Assembly (NCBI RefSeq): GCF_038811545.1
Contig: NZ_CP133319.1
Span: 868,001-932,000, forward strand
Reading direction: 5' to 3'
DNA length: 64,000 nt
From: Rhodoligotrophos sp. CJ14
Lineage (GTDB): Bacteria; Pseudomonadota; Alphaproteobacteria; Rhizobiales; Im1
In this document: positions 24,268 to 25,380 of the stretch, one piece after another
Position numbering within the stretch: the first letter of the stretch is position 1
Layout: the number at the start of each line of letters is the position of its first letter
Notes under the pieces: generated by a model
What the model saw: only the letters and a program-made list of their open reading frames with translations
Told to the model about the DNA's origin: nothing
Databases searched by the model: none
Position numbers and translations under genes: made by a program

Positions 24268-25380
24268 TTAGGGATCGAACCCGAAATAGCGGGTTTTCAT
24301 CTCCTCGAGAACGCCATTCTCTCTCAGCGCAATGACACCCAGGGAAACAGGCTTGGTGAGGGCGCTGCCAGGCGGGAAGGCAAAGCCATATTTCTCCGGG
24401 TCGAACGTATCGCCCACCACGTCCAGCGGCAGATCCGGATGGGTATGGGCGAAATATTCCAAAGCCGGATTGTCAGCCACCACCGCATTGACCTCGCGGT
24501 TGAGCAGCGCATTCACCGCATCCTCGATATGAGGAAATGGCACTGTCCGGATCTGTTGCTGCTTCATGTGTTTTTCCGCGACGCTCCCCGCCCGCACGGC
24601 CACGGTTTTTCCGTGCAGATCGGTCACGCTGTTGATCCGGTTTGCGATATGCGATGCGGTCATCACGCTGGTGATCGAGGACGTCACATAGGCCACAACC
24701 GCAACGCTGACCAGCAGCCACAGGCCCTGCCAGATTCGGCCGACCCAGCCGAACAGGTTCTTCCGGGATGTCTCGCCCTGAGTGGCAAGCGAGATCATGT
24801 GATAGAAATTTTCGGCAAAGCCCTCGCGCCAACTCTGCGGAAACTCTTCATCGAATAGGCGGTCAATGATCGTCACGATGATCGTGCCGAGCATGATGCA
24901 GAGAGCGATCCATCCGAAATTTCGGAGATGCCCGGCCTCTCGGAGATCATCGATGATGGTCGATATGCTCGAATTCGGATCCGAGTGCACCATGACCCTC
25001 AGGCCCGAATCGAACCACGAATGCGAGAAATCGACGACCTTCGCTCTATCCTCGGTGATGCTGAGATCCGTTACGGCTGCATCGACTTGGCTGTTTTTGA
25101 CCGCGTCGACCAGATCCGCATAGGTGGGATATTCCACGAATTCCGAAGCGATGGCACTGCCGGCAGCGACCTTCTGCCAAAGCTCGATCGCCATGCCGGA
25201 ATAGCTATTGCCCTCCTTCATGACGAAGGGTGGACTGACGTAAACGCCGACTCTGACGAGCTGTGGTGCGGGCGTCGCCTGGGTGACGCCTTGCGCGACG
25301 CTTCTGTTCGCAAGCAGAAGGCAGGCCAAGACAGCCAGGAAGATGACGCTCCCTAACTGCCGATACGACTGAACATTCAT
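24268..25380 (-). CDS. Bacterial ionotropic glutamate receptor-like channel (GluR0 type)
   Basis: 370 residues. Signal peptide 1-29; first half of a type II solute-binding domain about 40-145; membrane segment 155-174; re-entrant pore loop about 188-203; second membrane segment 214-241; second half of the binding domain about 248-368. A binding domain split by a pore module is the defining layout of prokaryotic glutamate receptors. Lobe 1 keeps LSITEDRAKVVDFS, whose R112 would hold the ligand alpha-carboxylate. The pore loop reads HMISLATQGET and lacks the K+ filter TVGYG of GluR0. The end of the second segment, SSITSVMTA, resembles the SYTANLAAF gate of animal receptors. A plain amino-acid binding protein is excluded by the inserted membrane module. 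Confidence 0.85.
   Translation of the reverse strand: MNVQSYRQLGSVIFLAVLACLLLANRSVAQGVTQATPAPQLVRVGVYVSPPFVMKEGNSYSGMAIELWQKVAAGSAIASEFVEYPTYADLVDAVKNSQVDAAVTDLSITEDRAKVVDFSHSWFDSGLRVMVHSDPNSSISTIIDDLREAGHLRNFGWIALCIMLGTIIVTIIDRLFDEEFPQSWREGFAENFYHMISLATQGETSRKNLFGWVGRIWQGLWLLVSVAVVAYVTSSITSVMTASHIANRINSVTDLHGKTVAVRAGSVAEKHMKQQQIRTVPFPHIEDAVNALLNREVNAVVADNPALEYFAHTHPDLPLDVVGDTFDPEKYGFAFPPGSALTKPVSLGVIALRENGVLEEMKTRYFGFDP

Follow-up and report, generated by a model that had tools for sequence, protein, structure and literature searches.

A glutamate-receptor-like protein from Rhodoligotrophos with a T-Q-G-E-T pore filter, a member of a bacterial subfamily with mostly basic filters

The window, a 64,000-nucleotide stretch of DNA from Rhodoligotrophos sp. 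CJ14, encodes a prokaryotic ionotropic-glutamate-receptor-like protein which, at a probability of roughly 0.6 judged from its sequence and a predicted structure, is an amino-acid-gated, probably non-selective cation channel of the Group 2 kind described by Ger et al. 2010 (PMC2950845). What is new concerns the filter: on the alignment, the subfamily to which the protein belongs has a conserved Lys/Arg filter, and this has been lost, with Glu gained, in the window lineage. The main text of Ger et al. 2010 (PMC2950845) makes no mention of a conserved Lys/Arg filter or of a reversal to Glu, and no description of a basic filter or of its reversal was found in the open-licence literature searched, including passages of PMC3483616, PMC6385376 and PMC12226733. 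The main point of the first-pass annotation, a glutamate-receptor-like channel with a non-potassium pore loop, was already in print, since Ger et al. 2010 described Group 2. Receptors that lie between the potassium channels and the animal glutamate receptors have been little studied outside GluR0, and a small family with two spans, about 370 residues and no extra domains, in which the charge of the filter changes sign between relatives, would allow a direct test of how that charge determines the selectivity of a ligand-gated pore.

Gene, domain order and predicted fold

Full-length relatives exist at 40–61% identity, so the open reading frame is not a chance one. Its features are listed below in window coordinates, with the evidence for each in brackets.

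24268–25380, minus strand: open reading frame, prokaryotic ionotropic-glutamate-receptor-like protein, 370 aa
25294–25380, minus strand: predicted signal peptide, residues 1–29 (hydropathy peak; the end, SVA, read by eye)
24973–25263, minus strand: S1 half of the ligand-binding domain, residues 40–136 (Pfam, alignment, model)
24853–24930, minus strand: M1 transmembrane helix, residues 151–176 (hydropathy, AlphaFold2 model)
24778–24831, minus strand: P (re-entrant) helix, residues 184–201 (model; block pLDDT 57–62 over 181–200)
24769–24783, minus strand: filter T200-Q201-G202-E203-T204 (alignment; model uncertain at 203–209)
24733–24768, minus strand: basic post-filter loop SRKNLFGWVGRI, residues 205–216, predicted to be cytoplasmic (conservation, charge)
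24643–24744, minus strand: M2 helix, residues 213–246 (helix 212–246 in the model), equivalent to animal M3 (model, alignment)
Residues 231–239, minus strand: gate segment YVTSSITSV within M2 (profile alignment to SYTANLAAF)
24277–24639, minus strand: S2 half of the ligand-binding domain, residues 248–368 (Pfam, alignment, model)

Pfam places SBP_bac_3 across residues 42–367 (4.3e-20) and Lig_chan-Glu_bd at residues 44–132 (6.4e-9), with Lig_chan at residues 158–259 (4.4e-9; 36.7 bits against a cut-off of 30.8) sitting within the split SBP_bac_3 domain as an insert of about 100 residues. The 19-residue hydropathy exceeds 1.2 solely at centres 12–24 (signal peptide), 159–169 (M1) and 218–237 (M2), so that the P segment amounts to less than a full span. 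S1 is placed in the periplasm because the predicted signal peptide precedes it.

An AlphaFold2 model built from three sequences had a pLDDT of 45.6; the mean rose to 78.5 once four distant receptors found on viral contigs were added (seven sequences). Within this model the pLDDT is 84–94 over most of the binding lobes, 66–77 in M1, 57–62 in the P helix and 61–75 in M2. Its helices at 151–176, 184–201 and 212–246 have the M1-P-M2 pattern of a pore-loop fold, as predicted for a monomer. The model is least certain at the filter, where residues 203–209 fall below a pLDDT of 50, which makes a pore-facing position of residue 203 no more than possible. In Foldseek, the model matches AMPA receptors along some 370 alignment columns at an rmsd of 5.5–9.2 Å, the best TM by query among the 50 matches listed being 0.65 (8p3w_D); NpGluR0 and a glutamine-binding protein are matched as well. 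The top VIA-align match is the ligand-binding core of NpGluR0 (Z 31.1, 1.4 Å, 212 residues).

Pfam, hydropathy, the helices of the model and Foldseek thus agree on the glutamate-receptor order of lobe, span, re-entrant loop, span and lobe that the first-pass annotation had read from the letters. On the topology check for the re-entrant loop, hydropathy gives no third span and the model gives a span, a short helix and a span.

Subfamily, ligand site and filter

The window protein's subfamily comprises 45 sequences that form one clade, with a filter that is mostly T-[S/T]-G-[K/R]. It was delimited with profile A1, built from 14 proteins, to which members score at least 419 bits and all others at most 245 bits. 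The alignment has 87 rows, the 45 of the subfamily and 42 others that were picked by likeness to the window protein and are not a census. Second fetches of the window gene (L039) and of L024 (L041) were left out, the duplicate pairs L013/L083 and L015/L086 are still counted within the 42, and L100–L106 lie outside the 87 rows, with L104–L106 unused. The matched stretch of L061 is interrupted by an in-frame TAG, and its open part alone was used. Of six subfamily proteins scanned, the window protein and L035 pass the Lig_chan cut-off and four (L001, L024, L025, L069) miss it.

In the window's order, profile A1 finds the subfamily in at least 29 of 297 genomes; the figures are at least 7 of 398 in the phylum sample and at least 1 of 385 in the class sample, namely the window's own; these counts are lower bounds, mostly with five to six candidates scored per genome. 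Members are also carried on plasmids, in Agrobacterium, Paracoccus, Devosia, Phyllobacterium, Ochrobactrum, Roseibium, Chelatococcus and Salmonella. The Salmonella member (L035 3989–5044) lies on an IncFII conjugative plasmid close to transposases, and this setting, remote from the family's alphaproteobacterial core, points to horizontal transfer.

A further member, of 50% identity and with the filter TSGRP, is found on the IMG/VR contig IMGVR_UViG_3300020599_000097 (L069 1965–3080; L070 3223–4335). The gene is set within a run of phage head genes, reading from the opposite strand, with flanking gaps of 24 and 142 bases, in the order terminase large subunit, portal fused to an Acb1-like anti-CBASS domain, receptor, head maturation protease and cement protein. 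This looks like a phage-carried receptor gene, seen in one contig only; a search of its protein against isolate phages gave no match, and a scan of the viral collection with profile A7 found nothing.

The ligand-binding arginine motif noted earlier is kept, as SITEDRAKVVDFS at residues 107–119. Within it, Arg112 of S1 is invariant in the subfamily (45/45) and Asp303 of S2 is present in 44 of the 45 rows. In such receptors the carboxylate and amino groups of the amino acid are contacted by one Arg of S1 and one Asp of S2 (Ger et al. 2010, PMC2950845), and by alignment Arg112 and Asp303 are taken to be these two contacts. The predicted ligand is given at the level of class, as an alpha-amino acid.

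T200-Q201-G202-E203-T204, within the SLATQGET of residues 197–204, aligns onto the T-V-G-Y-G of potassium-type receptors, which bears out the earlier claim of a pore loop without that motif. Such a loop is not rare, because 31 of the 42 other rows lack T[VIL]GYG (29 of 40 once the two duplicates are removed; 11 of 42 have it), as do 10 of the 22 prokaryotic proteins of this topology in Ger et al. 2010 (PMC2950845), the other 12 having a potassium filter. Within the subfamily, Thr200 is present in 41 of 45 rows and Gly202 in all. Position 201 is Ser in 30, Thr in 7, Lys in 4, Ala in 2, Gln in 1 and Asn in 1, and position 203, the site of the Tyr of TVGYG, is Lys in 24, Arg in 17, Glu in 2, Thr in 1 and Ser in 1. 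Glu203 is confined to the window protein and its sister L001, which has the filter T-K-G-E-A. Three rows without Lys/Arg at 203 have Lys at 201 instead (L001, L066, L067), leaving the window protein as the only one of the 45 without Lys/Arg at either position. Position 190 is Glu or Asp in 41 of 45 rows, and a Glu190–Lys/Arg203 salt bridge was considered; the window protein has Glu at both 190 and 203.

A quick tree made with the filter columns left out places the 45 subfamily rows in one clade against 33 others with an SH-aLRT of 99 (L007, L011, L012, L013, L014, L023, L081, L083 and L086 were omitted). The window protein and L001 pair with a support of 100, and this pair is nested among Lys/Arg rows with a support of only 84. 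T-Q-G-E-T is thus best explained, with moderate support from these sequence comparisons, as derived inside the bacterial T-[S/T]-G-[K/R] subfamily. It follows from this switch in the window lineage that the pore is most likely one that passes cations without K+ selectivity.

The basic filter itself may be read in another way, namely as the defining trait of an anion-permeable or very low-conductance channel whose function the window protein keeps through Arg206-Lys207. Lys/Arg203 in 41 of 45 rows, together with Arg206 in 40 and Lys207 in 39, would suit such a pore, and in the edited animal receptor GluA2(R) an Arg in the filter gives a detectable Cl- permeability, with a PCl/PCs of about 0.14 as cited in a part of PMC6754398. 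The same part of that source has GluA2(R) carrying negligible Cl- when an auxiliary subunit is present, and the window protein, alone among the 45, lacks Lys/Arg at 201 and at 203 and bears Glu203; this explanation is unlikely for it. A bolder version, in which a ring of four Lys/Arg makes an anion-permeable or charge-gated pore and the window lineage has flipped to Glu to give a CNG-like, non-selective, calcium-sensitive cation channel, is a speculative one of distinctly low probability. If true, it would be a natural charge-reversal experiment within one protein family.

It is also conceivable, if quite improbable, that the protein is a non-conducting membrane-bound amino-acid sensor, with an insert that anchors or dimerises the binding protein around a dead pore. 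Three proteins of the same genus (L007, L011, L012) keep the binding lobes and spans and have degraded P loops, so this domain plan can survive the loss of the filter; they are possibly non-conducting themselves. Conservation within the subfamily speaks against such a state. Over 14 sequences the mean pairwise identity is highest in the post-filter loop (74%) and M2 (64%), followed by the P helix and filter (56%), S1 (51%) and S2 (47%), and Gly202, Gly211, Gly214, Trp221, Ala230, Ser234 and Met240 are invariant in the 45 rows. Moreover, purifying selection acts on the membrane part: omega for the transmembrane domain is 0.04–0.18, and 7 of 10 pairs have it below the binding-domain value, with dS high in some, and for the P-to-post-filter stretch alone it reaches 0.32 in one pair. 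Because of the conserved post-filter loop and M2 and the low transmembrane omega, the pore looks maintained rather than decaying.

Membrane orientation, proposed mechanism and gene neighbourhood

Across the subfamily the mean net charge is +3.7 in the post-filter loop, -0.8 and -1.4 in the outer flanks and +0.2 in the M1-P linker. The charge of the post-filter loop against that of the outer flanks fits a cytoplasmic filter, the positive-inside pattern being a weak one. In the window protein the linker carries -4, the post-filter loop +2 and the outer flanks -2 and 0; since it has no positive-inside pattern of its own, the predicted orientation is drawn chiefly from the signal peptide and from homology.

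For the amino-acid-gated cation channel that is preferred here, a mechanism may be proposed. After export, the S1 and S2 lobes would come together in the periplasm as a clamshell, with Arg112 and Asp303 holding an alpha-amino acid. In a tetramer, a single pore would be surrounded by the M1, re-entrant P loop and M2 of each of the four subunits; it would be upside down with respect to that of K+ channels, with the filter pointing toward the cytoplasm. Closing of the clamshell would then tug on M2 and open the pore.

A partner gene was sought by clustering the neighbours at 43 loci (L001, L025–L036, L107–L136), and none was found for the window gene among them. Among the scanned neighbours of the window gene are a ribose-5-phosphate isomerase, a HAD hydrolase, an aldehyde dehydrogenase, a pyridine-nucleotide-disulphide oxidoreductase and a tRNA-Val; around the sister gene L001 the open reading frames are unlike those of the window and a tRNA is absent. 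An aldehyde dehydrogenase like the window's neighbour was matched in 4 of 43 loci, three of them at 31–38% identity, and by clustering the window, L034, L124 and L136 (the latter two of one genus) have the dehydrogenase at a distance of 0.5–1.2 kb from the receptor gene. Its recurrence may be chance. The second-largest neighbour cluster consists of antisense open reading frames, of which 39 of 42 overlap the receptor gene and 3 lie over the dehydrogenase.

Two other families recur mainly in one subclade, with the window outside it and lacking both: a small secreted-protein-like family at 6 of 43 loci, and a membrane-protein-like family of 196–200 amino acids near the receptor at 5 of 43 loci, placed by clustering as follows.

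L025 5098–5697, L031 5032–5631 and L107 6802–7398: 196–200-aa family, adjacent to the receptor gene
L027 7678–8265 and L028 7634–8221: 196–200-aa family, 2.6 kb away

Two large contigs from the viral collection carry PspA/IM30-like membrane-stress genes (L101 922–1593, L102 1004–1672; under the Pfam cut-off) a short way upstream of receptor genes of the potassium type.

The neighbourhoods also bear on whether the protein is simply the substrate-binding protein of an ABC importer that happens to carry a membrane insert. The annotation "transporter substrate-binding domain-containing protein" is attached in 10 of 14 plasmid stretches (the other 4 being unannotated there), the best NCBIfam match is GlnH, at 137.3 bits far under its cut-off of 303, and ABC-type ATPases occur in 8 of 43 loci. 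Set against this, eight of the window open reading frames between 19253 and 33196, scanned with Pfam, include no ABC component. An ATPase comes within 11 bases of the receptor gene only in L125, L127 and L128, all of one genus; these are not operon partners, because they lie on the opposite strand and run toward the receptor gene, and the remaining ATPases are 3–6 kb away. An importer's binding protein would have no membrane insert and a permease alongside, which is not the arrangement found for the window protein and the eight open reading frames scanned. This explanation, already disfavoured, is highly improbable.

Comparison with known receptors and channels

GluR0 of Synechocystis and the Group 1 proteins (e.g. 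L016, L084 and L087) share with the window protein the architecture, the binding residues and, in the filter, the initial Thr and the first Gly, and differ in having T-V-G-Y-G-D where it has T-Q-G-E-T. Of those scanned, L016 and L100 (the latter with T-I-G-Y-G) match Pfam Ion_trans_2, whereas the window protein does not. The closest solved ligand-binding core is that of NpGluR0 of Nostoc punctiforme (2pyy), at 34% identity over 212 residues, the binding core alone being compared.

AMPA, kainate and NMDA receptors and plant GLR proteins share the binding-domain fold together with M1-P-M3. A profile of the membrane part searched against the PDB matches GLR3.4 best (E 0.00095), followed by a bacterial two-span channel (0.028) and GluA1 (0.04). 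Unlike the animal receptors, the window protein has no amino-terminal domain and no M4 (its 370 residues end after S2), and it has neither the Q-Q-G-C-D filter nor an acid at +4. The animal rule, as set out in a part of PMC12226733, places an acid four residues after a Q/R/N site; counting from T200 the +4 residue is Thr204, and from Q201 it is Ser205. The gate likewise shows limited likeness. It is YVTSSITSV (231–239) that aligns with SYTANLAAF of animal receptors, in an ungapped manner and with one identical position in nine; the segment originally named for it, SSITSVMTA (234–242), is three residues off register. The proposal that the pore is closer to those of animal receptors hence finds no support, given the missing Q-Q-G-C-D, the missing +4 acid and the weak gate, and other bacterial rows are more animal-like.

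Five non-subfamily rows (L014, L038, L077, L082 and L093) are identical to SYTANLAAF at five of nine gate positions. Three of them, L077, L082 and L014, have the gate FYTAQLTAS or FYTAHLTAS and no T-V-G-Y-G, and L077 matches Lig_chan at 6.1e-19 against 4.4e-9 for the window protein. As judged from their sequences, these three are better candidates than the window protein for the idea of an animal-like pore.

Paralogues with a histidine-bearing pore loop occur in the window's own genome (L008 and L010; C1:3533725–3534780 and 3674507–3675526) and in a sister genome (L006, L009). Their loops include TAIGHSHHKAP, TAAGHPHHKAP and TATGHASHKTP, their C-termini end in GHGHH or GHRHH, and metal-responsive or proton-linked pores are possible.

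The nearest animal look-alike of the filter among those checked is that of CNGA1, T-I-G-E-T, which has the T-x-G-E-T letters in common with the window protein. CNG channels are non-selective and have the opposite membrane orientation. In comparison with them, Pfam finds in the window protein no voltage-sensor-like S1-S4 and no cyclic-nucleotide-binding domain. NaK chimeras with TIGETPPP show Ca2+ block, according to a part of PMC5052707. The T-x-G-E-T likeness involves few residues and may be chance; on the sequences compared it is convergent or fortuitous, no relation having been found beyond the pore-loop class.

Group 2 is known from proteobacteria and cyanobacteria, was proposed as the group closest to the eukaryotic receptors and has P regions which, according to the main text, resemble no known selectivity (Ger et al. 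2010, PMC2950845). The window protein resembles it in the S1-M1-P-M2-S2 order, the conserved Arg and Asp and the lack of a potassium filter. Some of the Group 2 accessions of those authors presumably come from Paracoccus and Silicibacter. Matched by description, the window protein probably belongs to the same broad group.
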